IMG/VR virus record: IMGVR_UViG_3300012919_000023
Coordinates: 1 to 31,140 of that record
Reading direction: 5' to 3' (one strand)
Origin: a virus
Length of the DNA stretch: 31,140 bases
Shown here: positions 5,921 through 30,465 of the stretch, piece by piece
How the letters are laid out: each line of letters begins with the position of its first letter
How positions within the stretch are numbered: position 1 is the stretch's first letter
The notes under the pieces: model-generated
Seen by the model: only the letters and a program-made list of their open reading frames with translations
Databases searched by the model: none
Told to the model about the DNA's origin: nothing
Program-made: the position numbers and the translations under genes

Positions 5921-5936
5921 TCTTATTATCCTAAAT

Positions 5937-5951
5937 CGTTACATTGTAACG
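5937..5951. promoter_or_regulatory. Dispersed palindrome, copy 1 (CGTTACATTGTAACG)
   Basis: A perfect 7+1+7 palindrome lies in the short gap between the gp14 stop (5953) and the gp15 start (5920), 16 bases upstream of the ATG. It is one of eight copies in the window. Flanking AAT and GTT extend the near-symmetry. Probable protein-binding operator; function inferred. Confidence 0.75.
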
Positions 5952-5952
5952 G

Positions 5953-12884: not shown

Positions 12885-12895
12885 GATGTAGGTTT

Positions 12896-12910
12896 CGTTA
12901 CATTGTAACG
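12896..12910. promoter_or_regulatory. Dispersed palindrome, copy 2 (CGTTACATTGTAACG)
   Basis: A perfect 15-bp palindrome in the capsid leader, 41 bases upstream of the chosen capsid ATG. This is the longest palindrome-to-start distance of the eight copies. Confidence 0.75.
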
Positions 12911-12952
12911 ATTAAGTGTTCCTGCATTCACTACTCACTTCACCAAGGATTG

Positions 12953-16263: not shown

Positions 16264-16268
16264 AAAAC

Positions 16269-16283
16269 CGTTACACTGTAACG
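16269..16283. promoter_or_regulatory. Dispersed palindrome, copy 3 (CGTTACACTGTAACG), overlapping the RNR stop
   Basis: A perfect palindrome 27 bases upstream of the 67-residue gene. It also encodes the last residues (VTV) and TAA stop of the ribonucleotide reductase gene. The element is therefore kept even where it must serve as coding sequence. Confidence 0.75.
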
Positions 16284-18175
16284 ATATCGACAACTTCACA
16301 GCTATCGCCACTACAGGCCAAGGTCTGACTACCCATTGTATTGTCTTCCTTCTCGTATTCACGAAGGCGTGACCAATCAACGCTGGCAGGCATTTTTGCC
16401 ATTAGTTCCTTGTAGGTTTCCTCATCAATATCTTGGTAAGGAGCTTGGCGATATACATGGTCGCTATAGGGCAAGAACGAGATGCCAGATAGGATGCTGA
16501 AGTTATCGTAAACCCATGCGCCAACATGCATCCACTCTTCATCCTTAACTGAAATAGTCACAGACGGCTTATGTTCACAGAAGTGGATAGCATACAGCTT
16601 CCAGACCTCTAGCTGTTCTATGGCACTCATTTCGGTGCGAGTTATTGCACCGTCAGGTGAACGCATAGGAAAGCTAAAGACAGTGGTGTTGTCTGGTTTG
16701 AGGTACTCAGGTTCTGAAGGTATGCCCTGCTCAATCATAAACTGTGTTAGCGGGTCTTTGTTATCGCCGCGAACATTGCGAATATAGTAGTTAGAATGAC
16801 GAGCATGAATGCCGCTGGCGGAATCAACAAGCTGTGAGACAGTACCACTAGGCTTGACACAGGTGATAGCCGTACTCTGAGGGATTGCAAGTAGCTCTGC
16901 ATAATCCCTGTTTGTTTGTACTGCCACACTACGAAGGCTCTCCAGAAGGGATGGTTCAGGATTTTTCGTGTATTCATTGTCCATAATACCTGTCAGGCTT
17001 ACGCCCAACAGCCTTTCTTCATCGGTGTTTTTGTTCCAAATGGGACGTAGGTAAGGCATGTAGGTAAACATCGACTGCACCGTCCCAATGATTGTTGCAA
17101 TCTTAACCTTTTTCTTGAGAGTCTGCGGTGTGTCTGTAGCTCTTACGACTACCTCAGACAGGTTGCAGAACTGATAAGGACGCAACAGGATTTCAGAGCA
17201 TGGGTTGCACCCAAACTCGTGGTCATGTTCTCGCCGTCCGTTGTTTTCTACATGTGCTTGTGCGGCTACGCGGCTGAATATGCCCCGCTCACCTGACTTG
17301 CTTTCTACCAAGGCAACCCATTCACGCATGAATGCTTCCATGTCAGGGGTCTTGGTATAGACAACTGAGTTGTTTGCCAAGGCCATCTCAGGTCGGTGTT
17401 CCCACCAGTTGCCTGATTTGGCGGTACGCATTTTGTCATCTTGCAGGTTGCTGAGACTAATCATTGCACTGCGGCGTACACCGCCTACGACAACAATTTC
17501 ACCAATCTTGCACATGATGCTGTGGCACTCGAAGCTGTCCAGACGGCGACCAGCGGCCTCTTTGAACTTGTCCACTGTGTAGCGGAACAACTGGTCAAGC
17601 GGCTCTGGGCCACTAGCGCGGCCTCCGAAGGTCTTCAGTCGCGCACCCGCTGGGCGTATCTTGTCTAAGTTCCACTGTGGTATGTCACCACCATACAGGA
17701 ATGAGATGAGCTTGCGGTATGCTTTAGACCAGCCCTCTTTACTGTCTTGGACAACAATAGTGTCATCTGACGGCGCAAGGTCGGCAGGGATTGTTGGTAG
17801 AGCATCTATATACTTACGCTCTACACTAAATCCTACCCCAGTCCCGCAAAGCAAAATAAACATTGCTTCATCAAATGCGCGTGGATGATTAACAGGGAGA
17901 TAGGAACAATTATATATACAAGTATTGTCACGGTCTGCGGCTTCTCCTGCTGTCATTAAGGCTCTCATGGAAGGCATTACATCCAGATTGAGTATAGCCT
18001 CACGAACCTGTTTGACAGTCTTCTTATCAGTTATGTGTCTTTCAATAATGTTTGCCATGAAACGGTCAACGGTTTCACCCCATGACTCGCGGCGTTCCTC
18101 TTCAGGAAGCCAACGAGCGTAACGGGAAGTGGCGATAAATGTTTGGTAGTCTGTGGGTAGATAATTACTTTTCAT
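16271..18175 (-). CDS. Adenosylcobalamin-dependent (class II) ribonucleotide reductase
   Basis: 634 residues, shorter than the ~740 of the Lactobacillus leichmannii enzyme, consistent with monomeric phage forms. Reduces ribonucleotides to deoxyribonucleotides using B12 as radical source. Visible active-site features: the first redox cysteine in 'DNTCIYNCSYLPV' (C86 or C90), the radical cysteine and glutamate in 'NPCSEI' (C326, E328), the second redox cysteine C337 in 'FCNLSEV', and a C-terminal CSGDSC pair (C621, C626) for thioredoxin-type re-reduction. Most relatives I know have NPCGE; here it is NPCSE. The site between exonuclease and portal is the same as in cyanophage P-SSP7. The start overlaps the DUF1599-like gene by 11 bases. 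Confidence 0.93.
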   Translation of the reverse strand: MKSNYLPTDYQTFIATSRYARWLPEEERRESWGETVDRFMANIIERHITDKKTVKQVREAILNLDVMPSMRALMTAGEAADRDNTCIYNCSYLPVNHPRAFDEAMFILLCGTGVGFSVERKYIDALPTIPADLAPSDDTIVVQDSKEGWSKAYRKLISFLYGGDIPQWNLDKIRPAGARLKTFGGRASGPEPLDQLFRYTVDKFKEAAGRRLDSFECHSIMCKIGEIVVVGGVRRSAMISLSNLQDDKMRTAKSGNWWEHRPEMALANNSVVYTKTPDMEAFMREWVALVESKSGERGIFSRVAAQAHVENNGRREHDHEFGCNPCSEILLRPYQFCNLSEVVVRATDTPQTLKKKVKIATIIGTVQSMFTYMPYLRPIWNKNTDEERLLGVSLTGIMDNEYTKNPEPSLLESLRSVAVQTNRDYAELLAIPQSTAITCVKPSGTVSQLVDSASGIHARHSNYYIRNVRGDNKDPLTQFMIEQGIPSEPEYLKPDNTTVFSFPMRSPDGAITRTEMSAIEQLEVWKLYAIHFCEHKPSVTISVKDEEWMHVGAWVYDNFSILSGISFLPYSDHVYRQAPYQDIDEETYKELMAKMPASVDWSRLREYEKEDNTMGSQTLACSGDSCEVVDIVTV

Positions 18176-21501: not shown

Positions 21502-21504
21502 AAT

Positions 21505-21519
21505 CGTTACCTTGTAACG
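21505..21519. promoter_or_regulatory. Dispersed palindrome, copy 4 (one-base variant) containing the DNA polymerase Shine-Dalgarno
   Basis: The minus strand reads CGTTACAAGGTAACG, one base off perfect symmetry. The change creates AAGG 9 bases from the polymerase ATG, so the element and the ribosome binding site are the same DNA. A protein or RNA fold on this site would directly affect polymerase translation or transcription. Confidence 0.7.
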
Positions 21520-21526
21520 GTTTTAG

Positions 21527-24802: not shown

Positions 24803-24828
24803 CTGTCTTTTTTCTCCATTTCGACAAT

Positions 24829-24843
24829 CGTTACAATGTAACG
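24829..24843. promoter_or_regulatory. Dispersed palindrome, copy 5 (CGTTACAATGTAACG)
   Basis: A perfect palindrome 26 bases upstream of the SSB ATG, lying just downstream of a candidate phage promoter. A protein bound here would sit in the path of, or at the start of, transcription into the replication block. Confidence 0.75.
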
Positions 24844-24850
24844 GTTAATG

Positions 24851-24893: not shown

Positions 24894-27311
24894 CTAAGCG
24901 AAAAAATAATCGCTTTTCAGGACTTCTTCGATATCGAAGTCGCCCCTTTTCGGTGGTGTTGGTACTTCTTCAAGCACCTCTTCCGCCGCTTTTTGGAATT
25001 GTTCTAAAACATCATTGTCTTTGTACAATTCCACAAAGGCTTCACGAGTCGCCGCGAACAGCGCATCGGTATCACAGGCGTGAGTACCATACGAGTCATG
25101 TATCATCGCAAAGTCCGTAATACCAAGCTTCACGCACCGATTGATTGTTTTCGTCATTGCTGACGAATCCATCGAATGCACGAAGTTTGGACTACTTCCA
25201 TTGACTGCCCTTCGGCGGTCAGTCTTTTGGTGGTTTGGCTCACGCAAGCTAGGCTTGATGAGCGTGTTGTCGATTGTGGTTGTGATACGCCGTGAACGCA
25301 TCTCTGGATACATCTGGTGTACCAGAAACCCAGTCGGGGTTTCCCAAATTAGTGGGATATTCTCACTGGACACAAGATAGCTTACTTCTTGAAGCCAGTC
25401 CATAACTTGCCGCGCTGACTGAATGACACCACCAATGGCTTGCCAAACAAACTCCGACAGGTATCTGCTAGGCTCGAACAGGTCATCGCCCCACGGATTG
25501 GTATGGCCCAGTTCAATACGCTCTTGGATGTAGTCCTCAATGTACTGGCGTGTGGAATATAGCTGACCACCGTATGGCACGACCATAACAGGCCGCTTGG
25601 TTGTCTTGCGGTTGACACCAAAGTCCAACCACTGACGAGCCATCGGGTCATCCTCACGCTTCAGCATGTCAATCACAGCATCCGCTACGTCTTGGTAGAT
25701 GTCCTGCGGCACATCTGAGTTTCGCAGGTTCGTTGCAAGCGCACCACGGGTATCTCTGAGCATGGCTGAGAGATGTTGTAGGCCGTTATTTGAGCCATCA
25801 AGGGACACAGGTAGGTAGCTGATACCACCATCAACCACACACCGCTTCCATTCGTGACAAAACGCAAGGAAGCACCAAGGCTTGTCAGCTTTAGTCCATC
25901 CCCGTGCCTGAAACGGGTCACGAGCGTAGTCAAGAATACTTTCTTCGTTTTCCTCAACCCACTTCACACGGTCATCGAATGAGACTTTGTCATAACCAAA
26001 GACATTCGCCCCATGAACAGCAAGCCAGTATAGCCCCCTTTTGCCCAACGGTTTCCCATCTCCAAACTCCAGCAACGCACGAGCATAGTCTGGCCCTTGC
26101 GGAGATAGGAAACTGCTGGTCACATACTTACGACCACGGAAATCCATTTGGTACACAAAAAAGAACTTTTGATATTCGCTGAACTTTTCTGCCATGTTCA
26201 TCGTCCGTACAAGTTGCATACGCTTGCTGGTCATACGGGCGTTTGTCTGATGCACACGAGAGGCCGCATGTTTCCATTGCACAAACCGACCAAGCTGGGC
26301 TTCGTCCATATCCGACTTCTTGATGTTAGGAAAGGGTGACGGCGGCAATGGAAACGGATTACGGGCTGGTAGACCACCCCAATCTTCGCCAGACTCCCAG
26401 CACTGTTGCATGACATCCAGAATCCACTTGTTCACTCTCCAGCCTGTGTTCTGCAATGCGTTGATGGCATCGTATTCTTCAGGCATCTCATGAAACTCAA
26501 GCTCATCGAAATAACGCTTGTTGGTTGTCTTGACCAACGGCAGAGGGTGTATGTGCTTTGTGTGGTAGCCGCCAGAAAATGCAGATGACCACGGGCGCGG
26601 CGGGATGACACAAGGCATGAAGCGAGGCGATAAAGCCTCACTTCGCTTGTTCACACGACTCACCCAGTCCAGCGTTTCATCGGTGGCTGTGACATGTAGC
26701 ATTCTACGGTTACGCCCATAGGTATGCGTGACAAGCTTGCAGATGCCCGTGGATTGGACAATCAGGTCAATGACCTTGCAACCCAGATGCATTTTTTCCT
26801 GTTTCGACCACGGCTCGTATTCGATGAGAGCTTTCTTGTTCATCGTGTGGATGATTGCGTACCGCCGATACAGGCGATTGGATGTTCGCTTGTTTACATC
26901 ACGAGCAATCTTGTTGAACCACTTCGGTTCTTGTTCCTTGAAACAGCCAAACTTAAACTCGTCTTCTAAAGCTCCAGCAATCTTCATTGCGACTTTGGTC
27001 AGAGAGTGCTGGTGACTAATGCCATCCATCACAAACTTGAGGCCAAGATAAGCGGCTACTTCTTCGTCTAGCATCTTCAGCAGGTATGCGGCAGACGCTC
27101 CACGACTTGGTTTGCCGTTGAAGCTGTCATCAAGGAATACCCTGATGGCTTCTGTAACGGCATCTACGCTTTGTTTCATGGCAAGAATGCCATACAGCGT
27201 GTTGCTTTCACCGCCGCTGGCGACAGCTTTGGCTACTTGAGATTTATAGTATTCTACGCCTGTAGAACGCATCTCACTTTCTAACTCGTATTGTTGTTCA
27301 ATTAGTTTCAT
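24894..27311 (-). CDS. Single-subunit DNA-directed RNA polymerase, T7 gp1-like
   Basis: 805 residues (T7 has 883). All catalytic landmarks are present: 'DFRGRKY' (~390), motif A 'LDGSNNGLQHLSAMLRD' with D505 (T7 D537), motif B R568-K572-Y580 with the same spacings as T7 R627-K631-Y639, and motif C 'MIHDSYG' with H738-D739 (T7 H811-D812). It ends in ...DYFFA, like the FAFA foot of T7 polymerase. It transcribes the middle and late phage genes. It follows integrase and the 42-residue gene, whereas T7 encodes it near the left end without an integrase. The leader has repeated TATAG motifs that may give autoregulation. Confidence 0.97.
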   Translation of the reverse strand: MKLIEQQYELESEMRSTGVEYYKSQVAKAVASGGESNTLYGILAMKQSVDAVTEAIRVFLDDSFNGKPSRGASAAYLLKMLDEEVAAYLGLKFVMDGISHQHSLTKVAMKIAGALEDEFKFGCFKEQEPKWFNKIARDVNKRTSNRLYRRYAIIHTMNKKALIEYEPWSKQEKMHLGCKVIDLIVQSTGICKLVTHTYGRNRRMLHVTATDETLDWVSRVNKRSEALSPRFMPCVIPPRPWSSAFSGGYHTKHIHPLPLVKTTNKRYFDELEFHEMPEEYDAINALQNTGWRVNKWILDVMQQCWESGEDWGGLPARNPFPLPPSPFPNIKKSDMDEAQLGRFVQWKHAASRVHQTNARMTSKRMQLVRTMNMAEKFSEYQKFFFVYQMDFRGRKYVTSSFLSPQGPDYARALLEFGDGKPLGKRGLYWLAVHGANVFGYDKVSFDDRVKWVEENEESILDYARDPFQARGWTKADKPWCFLAFCHEWKRCVVDGGISYLPVSLDGSNNGLQHLSAMLRDTRGALATNLRNSDVPQDIYQDVADAVIDMLKREDDPMARQWLDFGVNRKTTKRPVMVVPYGGQLYSTRQYIEDYIQERIELGHTNPWGDDLFEPSRYLSEFVWQAIGGVIQSARQVMDWLQEVSYLVSSENIPLIWETPTGFLVHQMYPEMRSRRITTTIDNTLIKPSLREPNHQKTDRRRAVNGSSPNFVHSMDSSAMTKTINRCVKLGITDFAMIHDSYGTHACDTDALFAATREAFVELYKDNDVLEQFQKAAEEVLEEVPTPPKRGDFDIEEVLKSDYFFA

Positions 27312-27319
27312 TTAGTCTC

Positions 27320-27400
27320 CCATCTATAGGTTTCCTTTAGGGTACTACTACCTACAAAGCCTATAACATCTATAGTGTCCATTTTGTTGTACACCTATAA
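27320..27400 (-). promoter_or_regulatory. Cluster of TATAG promoter-like motifs upstream of the RNA polymerase gene
   Basis: The minus strand contains, in order, AAATTATAGGTGT, GGACACTATAGATGTT (the best match, 27366-27381), TGTTATAGGC and AACCTATAGATGGG, all in about 80 bases before the polymerase start. TATAG is the melting/start core of T7-family promoters. Two of the four continue as ATAGATG. The first and second overlap the end of the 42-residue gene. Confidence 0.5.
27366..27381 (-). promoter_or_regulatory. Candidate phage RNA polymerase promoter before the polymerase gene
   Basis: The minus strand reads TGGACACTATAGATGT. It shares 15 of 16 bases with the motif before SSB and contains GACACTATAGA, as in the SP6 promoter. 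It encodes the last residues (WTL) and TAG stop of the 42-residue gene. An autogenous promoter for the polymerase is plausible; no transcript start is known. Confidence 0.6.
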
Positions 27401-27498
27401 TTTAGACAAGGTTCATGGTCTAGGGGTAGTTCGGGTTGTTCTTCATGCTTCAGGCTGGGATTGTTGTCCAGCGGTAGCTCGATTTGCTCTTCATTCAT
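27370..27498 (-). CDS. 42-residue protein with two tandem beta-clamp-binding-like motifs
   Basis: Starts MNEEQIELPLD at 27498 with GGAG 6 bases upstream, overlapping the integrase stop by 8 bases. It is a 16-residue (48-bp) tandem duplication: EEQIELPLDNNPSLKH then EEQPELPLDHEPCLNY, followed by a short tail whose last codons coincide with the promoter-like motif. Each unit has QxxLPL (Q5-L10 and Q21-L26), which fits the hexameric bacterial sliding-clamp binding motif QxxLx[L/F] and closely resembles QLSLPL of Hda. It has no other domain. A bivalent DnaN-binding peptide acting on host replication is my inference. An unrelated acidic linker peptide cannot be excluded. Confidence 0.6.
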   Translation of the reverse strand: MNEEQIELPLDNNPSLKHEEQPELPLDHEPCLNYRCTTKWTL

Positions 27499-28489
27499 AC
27501 TTGTCTCCAAGCATGGAGATTGCATCTGCCAGATTGCGAGGTGCAAGCTTGGCATAGCGCATGGTTACAGCAATAGTTTTGTGACCCAGAAGCTCTTTGA
27601 CAACTTGAAGAGTCACCCCCCTTTGAACCAGTCGGCTGGCGAAGGTGTGACGCAAGGTGTGCCATACTACGTCTTCACCAAGGCCTGCTTTGGTGCGGGT
27701 TCTATCCCATGCAGAACGTGCATATCCATCTTTGAAGATTAGACTGTTTTGCTGTTTTACAGAGGCTTTCCTGCGCTCCAAGATTTTTCTGGAACGTGGG
27801 GTTAGAGGGATTGTTCGAGCTACATCATTCTTGCTTTCCCATACCACTAGCCCCTCTGGTATGAGGTCAAGGGCTTTGATACGCCCTAGCTCACCCTGAC
27901 GCACCCCTGTGTCCAGTGACACAACGATAGCGTCTTGTAGGTTCGCATATCCAAGTTTGCCAGCCGTGTACACAACACGACTTATTTCATCATCATTTAA
28001 CCAGCGTAGGCGGTGTTCGCCTTCACGCTGTCGCCTGAATACTATGTTACCAAAATATTTGTCATACTCCCTAGCAACCCTGAAGGTTTTACTAAGCACT
28101 GCCAAGCGGCGATTGATGGTCGCCCCCGACAGGCCAGCTTCTTTCATGTGGATAATATAATCGTCCACATCGGATGTGGTCATGTCAGTGATTAACTTCT
28201 GGCGACCAAAGAAATCCATAGCCTTGGTCATGTTAATAAGCATCATTCTCTCAGACCTACCGCCCTCCCAATGCAGGGCGAAGGTTCGATTGAATGCTTC
28301 TCTCAGTGTCCACCCGTTTCCAACGCCGTTTTTAGGGGGATTTGGTACGGGCTTGTCATTTTCTAGTGCCTCTCGTGTCAGTGCTTCCCACGCCACAGCT
28401 TCAGCTTTGCTTTTGAAACTGCGCCGTAATCTCTGGGATGCATGAGACACATAGGCTTGATAAGAATTACCTCGTTGTACAACCGTCAT
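27491..28489 (-). CDS. int: Tyrosine recombinase / phage integrase
   Basis: 332 residues from ATG 28489 (GGAG about 12 bases upstream); a TTG eight codons earlier is possible but lacks a better ribosome site. The N-terminal arm-type domain (~1-50) and SAM-like core-binding domain (~62-145) precede a full catalytic set: R197 (DTGVRQGEL), K220 (WESKNDVARTIPL), H277-R280 (HTLRHTFASRL), H303 (LLGHKTI) and nucleophile Y312 (MRYAKL). It should catalyse attP-attB integration. Integrases are found in P-SSP7-like cyanophages and HTVC019P-like pelagiphages at this site. No excisionase, repressor or attP was recognised nearby. Confidence 0.95.
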   Translation of the reverse strand: MTVVQRGNSYQAYVSHASQRLRRSFKSKAEAVAWEALTREALENDKPVPNPPKNGVGNGWTLREAFNRTFALHWEGGRSERMMLINMTKAMDFFGRQKLITDMTTSDVDDYIIHMKEAGLSGATINRRLAVLSKTFRVAREYDKYFGNIVFRRQREGEHRLRWLNDDEISRVVYTAGKLGYANLQDAIVVSLDTGVRQGELGRIKALDLIPEGLVVWESKNDVARTIPLTPRSRKILERRKASVKQQNSLIFKDGYARSAWDRTRTKAGLGEDVVWHTLRHTFASRLVQRGVTLQVVKELLGHKTIAVTMRYAKLAPRNLADAISMLGDKYE

Positions 28490-28505
28490 TTTTAAGTTTG
28501 CTCCG

Positions 28506-29331: not shown

Positions 29332-29348
29332 AAATCCTGTTTTAGAAC

Positions 29349-29363
29349 CGTTACAATGTAACG
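29349..29363. promoter_or_regulatory. Dispersed palindrome, copy 6 (CGTTACAATGTAACG)
   Basis: A perfect palindrome directly after the T-run of the terminator at 29364-29409, 17 bases before the ATG at 29331. Terminator followed at once by palindrome suggests that a new transcription unit starts or is controlled here. Confidence 0.75.
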
Positions 29364-29409
29364 AAAAAAAATGCCCCACAGTGGAAAAGGAGATAAACCA
29401 CTGTGGGGC
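29364..29409 (-). terminator. Intrinsic terminator after the 138-residue gene
   Basis: On the minus strand, a perfect 12-bp stem GCCCCACAGTGG / CCACTGTGGGGC with a 13-base loop is followed by an A and then eight T residues. It lies 20 bases after the stop at 29430. Strong intrinsic terminator for host or phage polymerase in the early region. Confidence 0.93.
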
Positions 29410-29846: not shown

Positions 29847-29865
29847 ATCTTGGCCTCCTCATAAT

Positions 29866-29880
29866 CGTTACAATGTAACG
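29866..29880. promoter_or_regulatory. Dispersed palindrome, copy 7 (CGTTACAATGTAACG)
   Basis: A perfect palindrome between the sigma70 promoter (-10 at 29926-29931) and the 138-residue gene, 19 bases before the ATG. It sits in the transcribed leader, about 40-55 bases after the predicted start site. Confidence 0.75.
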
Positions 29881-29918
29881 GTTGGACAGCATCCTTCTCC
29901 AAAGCACTACCCAACCGT
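29878..29918 (-). other. Inverted repeat at the predicted 5' end of the early transcript
   Basis: Arms ACGGTTGG and CCAACCGT (8 bp, 25-base loop) on the minus strand. The first arm starts where the sigma70 promoter should begin its transcript, and the second arm overlaps palindrome copy 7. The leader RNA could fold either as this hairpin or as the palindrome's own short stem. Confidence 0.5.
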
Positions 29919-29925
29919 CACACTC

Positions 29926-29953
29926 ATTATACCAAATTGTCATTGTTTGTCAA
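29926..29953 (-). promoter_or_regulatory. Sigma70-type promoter, near consensus
   Basis: The minus strand has TTGACA (29948-29953), a 16-base spacer and TATAAT (29926-29931), both hexamers perfect. The -35 overlaps the last codons and stop of the 165-residue gene. It points at the 138-residue gene. The only promoter of this quality I noticed, suited to immediate transcription by the host polymerase after infection. Confidence 0.85.
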
Positions 29954-30435
29954 TGACTTACATAGGTAACCCTGTTGTCATCAGACGTGACCTCTTTTGG
30001 CAAACGCCACACACGATAGTCACCATTTGGTGTCTTTTTGACATGCACTTTGACCCCCGCTTCATCTGCGAGTAAGTAGACAAAGCTTGTGTCACCCGAC
30101 ACATGCCGTATGACTTGGTGTGGGATATCAAAGCAGTCACCAACAATCACCTCACCAGTCACATCGGAAATGGCAAGGTTTTTGAGGGCAATGACCAGTG
30201 GGCTGGACGCGTTGAACTCACGCTTGCGCGACTTCACAATCTTCTTATGCACAGGTATATCACGCATGATTATCTGTGGTTCAAAGTCTGCCAGACTGCC
30301 AATGGTCATCTCAGACTGCCTCTGCAAAGTCAGTTGAGGCTGGGCGAGTACACGCTTGACCTCTTCCTGAACCGTACGCGGCTCTTCTTGGGTTTCAGTT
30401 TTGGGTTTAGTAAACGGATTATCAAATAACGCCAT
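29950..30435 (-). CDS. Early phage protein, unknown (161 residues)
   Basis: Starts MALFDNPFTKPKTETQEEP at 30435 with GGAG upstream; an ATG four codons earlier is possible but would place the start two bases from the palindrome. Residues 1-60 are charged and flexible. The C-terminal ~90 residues (SPLVIALKNLAISDVTGEVIVGDCFDIPHQVIRHVSGD...FVYLLADEAGVKVHV) form a compact beta-rich domain with no recognised family. It carries the -35 of the next unit's promoter in its stop region. Confidence 0.7.
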   Translation of the reverse strand: MALFDNPFTKPKTETQEEPRTVQEEVKRVLAQPQLTLQRQSEMTIGSLADFEPQIIMRDIPVHKKIVKSRKREFNASSPLVIALKNLAISDVTGEVIVGDCFDIPHQVIRHVSGDTSFVYLLADEAGVKVHVKKTPNGDYRVWRLPKEVTSDDNRVTYVSH

Positions 30436-30449
30436 CTCAATCTCCATAT

Positions 30450-30464
30450 CGTTACAGCGTAACG
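30450..30464. promoter_or_regulatory. Dispersed palindrome, copy 8 (variant, with an extra half-site)
   Basis: CGTTACAGCGTAACG, one base off symmetry. The right half continues into a second overlapping palindrome, GTAACGGTTAC (30459-30469), giving three half-sites in a row. It lies 14 bases before the ATG at 30435 and directly after the stop of the 59-residue gene. Confidence 0.65.
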
Positions 30465-30465
30465 G

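Follow-up and report, generated by a model that had tools for sequence, protein, structure and literature searches.

The 31,140-bp virus fragment analyzed in this study (the window) carries, at the position where its close relatives have a tRNA-Leu/attP region, a gene for a 42-residue miniprotein with two units of the form EEQxELPLD. This location had escaped the first-pass annotation. The evidence weighs about equally for and against what we consider the best explanation of the gene, namely that it encodes an early, largely disordered acidic peptide that competes for the pocket in which DnaN, the sliding clamp of the host, binds peptides. The window has a T7-like podophage gene set, which includes the single-subunit RNA polymerase, SSB, the primase-helicase, the family-A DNA polymerase, and the integrase.

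The miniprotein gene (27370..27498, minus strand) has an ATG start and a TAG stop, and its translation from 27498 to 27370 is MNEEQIELPLDNNPSLKHEEQPELPLDHEPCLNYRCTTKWTL, followed by the stop codon. The translation bears out the earlier description of the product as a 16-residue duplication carrying QIELPL (residues 5-10, 27469..27486) and QPELPL (residues 21-26, 27421..27438). The two motifs are 16 residues apart and stand in the contexts EEQIELPLD and EEQPELPLD, respectively; the flanks of QIELPL, EE before and D after, are acidic, as read directly from the translation. A GGAG Shine-Dalgarno-like site (27505..27508), also read directly, is located 6 nt 5' of the ATG. The start overlaps the stop codon of the integrase gene (27493-27491) in ATGAATGA (27491..27498), an arrangement of translational coupling, and the RNA polymerase gene begins downstream at 27311, in agreement with the proposed coupling to the integrase and position before the polymerase. 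Both neighbors, the tyrosine integrase (27491..28489; Phage_integrase, phrog_1) and the T7-type single-subunit RNA polymerase (24894..27311), are encoded on the same minus strand. AlphaFold2, applied to the miniprotein as a single sequence without alignment, predicted no fold (pLDDT 61).

The main evidence for function comes from the comparison of the two repeats. Over the few sites that this one sequence, known from a single contig, offers, the two 15-codon units show 8 synonymous differences per 9.8 synonymous sites (pS 0.81) and 7 nonsynonymous differences per 35.2 nonsynonymous sites (pN 0.20); thus the miniprotein behaves as a coding sequence selected for the motif. Eight of the nine EEQxELPLD residues are the same in both copies, four of them via synonymous codons. 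Since the synonymous sites are nearly all changed and the motif is intact, EEQxELPLD appears to be what selection has kept, and the comparison argues strongly, if not finally, that both copies are maintained. When the residues of the miniprotein were shuffled at constant composition, 0.05% of the shuffles had a pair of QxxLx[LF] motifs and 0.0005% a pair of QxxLP[LF] motifs; such a QxxLP[LF] pair occurs in none of the other ORFs of the window. We conclude that the ORF is very probably a real gene. No homologue was found in PHROGs, Pfam, or PDB; a tblastn search of INPHARED with an E limit of 10 gave nothing better than a chance match (E 3), and a protein search, run without a positive control, did not find it in 33 related virus records. 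With its two copies exactly 48 nt apart, the tandem motif has seven matches in IMG/VR, none of them homologous; with variable spacing, it was found in three virus records (L158, L159, and L160) and, among genomes, in two simple-repeat or chance matches.

The surroundings of the gene point to an exchange of DNA between the integrase and RNA polymerase genes. Five records are approximately 90% identical to the window (L002, L003, L004, L005, and L015), and their RNA polymerases share 96-97% protein identity with that of the window. The four of them that reach the integrase (L003, L004, L005, and L015) contain a complete tRNA-Leu(TAA) between the integrase and RNA polymerase genes, with a CGTTACA-N-TGTAACG palindrome beside it. 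The same tRNA is present in all 13 scanned relatives that reach this junction, including the more distant ones with a 41-64% identical polymerase; it is likely the attP site. The window has non-homologous DNA at 27397..27492 (minus strand) instead of this region and the palindrome, and contains neither a tRNA nor, anywhere along its length, a match of more than 11 nt to the attP of the relatives. Homology, as detected by blastn, restarts at approximately 27396, and the last 8-9 codons of the miniprotein are inherited promoter DNA.

Two further differences flank the exchanged segment. Directly upstream of the integrase, the same four relatives have a gene for a MarR/winged-helix-like HTH regulator (with weak Pfam scores), and at 28490..28505 (minus strand) the window lacks the approximately 520 bp that include this gene. 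Directly before the RNA polymerase, all five relatives have a 57-aa ORF, of which the window retains the 3-codon scar ATGGGAGACTAA (27312..27323, minus strand). The window state is derived, since the state with the tRNA prevails, and because the window lacks the tRNA-Leu, the palindrome, the HTH gene, and the 57-aa ORF, the miniprotein gene appears to have been imported in exchange for the attachment site. The synonymous divergence between the window and its nearest relatives is 0.34-0.42 in the RNA polymerase and integrase genes, well below that between the repeats (the probability of at least 8 of 10 sites being changed at pS 0.35 is 0.005); the duplication therefore probably predates the exchange, and the gene was probably imported already duplicated. 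The deletion of approximately 520 bp (relative to L003) next to the integrase and the loss of attP suggest that the lysogeny module has been lost. Compared with the nearest relatives, the integrase is 91% identical at the protein level and evolves under purifying selection (dN/dS 0.08-0.10); thus any loss of its function is recent, or else the att site is located outside the fragment. A search of 84,980 genomes for the host, with 60 nt of the tRNA-Leu of the relatives as an exact query, gave no match.

The promoters place the miniprotein among the early genes. A perfect sigma70-type promoter, TTGACA-16-TATAAT with TG (29926..29953, minus strand), lies over a short inverted repeat and heads the early block, the end of which is formed by the integrase and the miniprotein; L004 and L005 have a weaker version of this promoter at the same place. 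The sequence GGACACTATAG (27370..27380, minus strand), a probable promoter of the phage RNA polymerase, is conserved in relatives and resembles the T7 promoter core, and its TAG is the stop codon of the miniprotein. A second copy of this sequence, GGACATTATAG, separates the RNA polymerase gene from that of SSB. Because the miniprotein gene follows the sigma70-type promoter and precedes the first phage promoter found (27380), we infer that it should be expressed early, by the host RNA polymerase.

Two other candidate regulatory signals were observed. The short inverted repeat GTCATTGACAAACAATGAC (29939-29957), overlapping the -35 box of the perfect sigma70-type promoter, is a possible repressor operator, though the window lacks the relatives' HTH gene. 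The palindrome CCGTTACANTGTAACGNTT occurs at eight intergenic sites (5934-5952, 12893-12911, 16266-16284, 21502-21520, 24826-24844, 29346-29364, 29863-29881, and 30447-30465), giving 16 matches over both strands against 0.09 expected. Each site is located 0-29 nt before a minus-strand gene, and the palindrome is also present in the approximately 90% identical relatives; it could be an operator, an RNA processing hairpin, or a terminator. The site at 16266 is followed by T5 and the promoter-like sequence GGACATTATCG.

Two canonical clamp motifs have been published, Q-phi-x-[L/M]-[F/L] and the hexameric Q-phi-x-[L/M]-x-[F/L], and their flanks tend to be acidic (PMC11139829). Of the two motifs of the miniprotein, initially matched to QxxLx[L/F], QIELPL satisfies the hexameric form and QPELPL, through Pro at position 2, only the looser QxxLxL. 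Proline was suggested to hold Gln out of its subsite in the MutL motif QPLLI (PMC11139829), and by this comparison QPELPL is probably the weaker site, so that the peptide would have one good site and one weaker one. Binding of the miniprotein to the clamp is plausible, and we lean slightly toward it; inhibition of host replication, as a part of clamp binding, is proposed more tentatively.

The scenario that we favor is as follows. A lineage of T7-like phages that integrate at tRNA-Leu acquired the miniprotein gene, probably pre-duplicated, in place of the attP/tRNA segment. Each motif would then, most likely, bind host DnaN in its peptide pocket, in the fashion of Hda. High early expression and two sites per chain, acting through rebinding or by linking two clamps, could make the miniprotein an effective competitor that displaces Pol III along with other clients of the clamp and slows host replication, while the clamp-independent T7-type replisome of the phage itself would continue. 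Bridging of both pockets of one DnaN dimer had been suggested at first. The DnaN pockets lie outside the channel, across the two-fold axis from each other. As the 10-residue linker between the motifs (residue 10 to 21) spans at most approximately 40 Å and the channel itself is approximately 35 Å wide (PMC11139829), bridging of a single dimer is probably impossible, and this variant was abandoned. The proposed inhibition of the clamp also has to be weighed against the fact that the nearest relatives manage without the gene, and that many carriers of EEQxELP[LF]D are not obviously replication proteins.

The distribution of this pattern in IMG/VR bears on the nature of the docking partner. As an indication rather than a measurement, given that the patterns also allow F at the first hydrophobic position, the clusters are loosely defined, the start sites are guesses, and the database contains redundant records, EEQxELP[LF]D has 52 matches in 18 protein clusters, 10 of them with the match within 11 residues of a protein end, whereas the reversed control pattern has 12 matches in five clusters, none within 12 residues of an end, and a control with Q replaced by E has eight matches, three of which are in credible ORFs. 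This recurrence fits a short motif of the clamp type. In one case (L159), an unrelated phage protein of 102 aa starts with MKEQFELPLEVSGEQLELPLEF, an independent N-terminal tandem.

Several other carriers were observed in the same scan. A DUF927/Cch-HTH protein of 639 aa (L106:8526-10445), the C-terminus of which is exactly TEEQIELPFD, is a good candidate for a C-terminal clamp tail. A family of zinc-ribbon-like phage proteins of approximately 56-64 aa (RWKDDLCPxCK...; L087, L094, L105, L138, and 11 others), which has no clear PHROG and matches nothing in INPHARED, ends in EEQLELPLDFE. Very large phage proteins in L158, L160, and L142 have a low-complexity stretch in which QxELP[LF] is repeated, with 3-5 copies.

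The enriched EEQxELP[LF]D motif could serve another docking partner, and a rather unlikely alternative for the miniprotein is that it carries a real, selected short linear motif, the partner of such tails not being DnaN. The enrichment of the motif in unrelated phage proteins, including the very large ones and an SSB-type protein, for which clamp binding is no obvious need, would agree with this; however, the enrichment depends on Q (52 versus 8 matches), and the L-x-L/F spacing agrees with the rules of the clamp pocket (PMC11139829). We also consider it unlikely that a broader proposal applies, in which phages repeatedly use EEQxELP[LF]D as a portable clamp-docking tag, present alone in miniproteins, doubled at protein ends, and multiplied in large proteins; the window would then hold the minimal free-standing two-tag form, which took over a temperate-type attachment site and blocks the clamp pocket.

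Improbable, in our estimate, is that the miniprotein recruits the clamp, either for processivity of the phage polymerase or for placing the co-translated integrase at host forks, as transposases do. The first-pass annotation was right that the family-A polymerase seems to lack the thioredoxin-binding loop, since T7 residues 267-318 are matched by only about 13 residues; the coupling of the miniprotein to the integrase and the many transposases that bind the clamp via such motifs (PMC4549789) also speak for recruitment. As a general need of this polymerase, however, it is contradicted by L003 and L015, which share the polymerase region (approximately 90.7% DNA identity) without the miniprotein ORF, and the sequenced portion of these two fragments contains no QxELPL coding pattern; a role as general processivity partner of the T7-type polymerase was rejected for this reason. 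Relatives with the 91%-identical integrase also do without the miniprotein, which is a separate peptide with no domain able to bind polymerase or integrase, and, with attP missing from its usual place, the integrase may here be without substrate.

The idea that the miniprotein is a non-functional chance ORF in recently inserted DNA, ended by a stop within the phage promoter, would explain a singleton without database match and final codons made of inherited promoter DNA, but it is very improbable given the Shine-Dalgarno site, the coupled start and stop, and a shuffle probability of 0.0005 or less, and was dropped because of the selection signal between the repeats.

If clamp inhibition by the miniprotein is true, a natural two-motif peptide of this kind would be among the smallest clamp inhibitors and could serve as a template for antibacterial peptides directed at the clamp. 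Few ways in which phages attack the sliding clamp are known so far, and the best described of them uses the DNA channel, not the peptide pocket. The enrichment of EEQxELP[LF]D provides a concrete list of phage proteins for clamp-binding tests, and the swap of an attachment site for a probable host-directed gene clearly illustrates how an integrating lineage may gradually turn purely lytic.

Several known systems resemble parts of this picture. The phage proteins Twort gp168 and G1 gp240 target the sliding clamp of S. aureus and stop host replication (PMC3594737), whereas for the miniprotein a link to DnaN is a prediction; moreover, Twort gp168 occupies the DNA channel of the clamp, and phage DnaN inhibitors thus need not use the peptide pocket (PMC11139829). 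Database searches gave no PHROG, phage-record, or PDB match that would relate the miniprotein to known DnaN inhibitors. No description of a phage peptide that docks in the canonical clamp pocket turned up in the literature searched; since few subscription journals were covered, this negative carries little weight.

One close parallel is the N-terminal QLSLPL of E. coli Hda, the peptide PAQLSLPLYL of which binds E. coli DnaN with a KD of 0.38 uM (PMC11139829). The miniprotein likewise has the hexameric QxxLPL, in a probably disordered segment, and by analogy may work like the Hda tail. Hda is, however, an AAA+ protein with one motif, whereas the miniprotein carries two, apparently without a folded domain; membership in the Hda/HdaA family was rejected, as the product has 42 aa, no Pfam match, and no DnaA-like AAA+ domain. 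IS transposases are comparable as mobile-element proteins with a short clamp motif, many of them binding the clamp via C-terminal motifs of the Q-L-x-L-F type that evolved convergently (PMC4549789), but their motif recruits the attached enzyme, and the miniprotein carries none.

The locus itself has counterparts in T7-like cyanophages, which have attP at this same integrase-adjacent place (PMC8776855), and in a pelagiphage-type genome, where the integrase is accompanied by a tRNA-Leu fragment (PMC3861242). Their module, the integrase followed by an attP identical to tRNA-Leu, is the arrangement seen in the relatives of the window. The window differs from it in having the miniprotein in place of attP/tRNA and in the absence of the upstream HTH gene, and two of the 13 integrase-bearing T7-like cyanophages are also without attP (PMC8776855).
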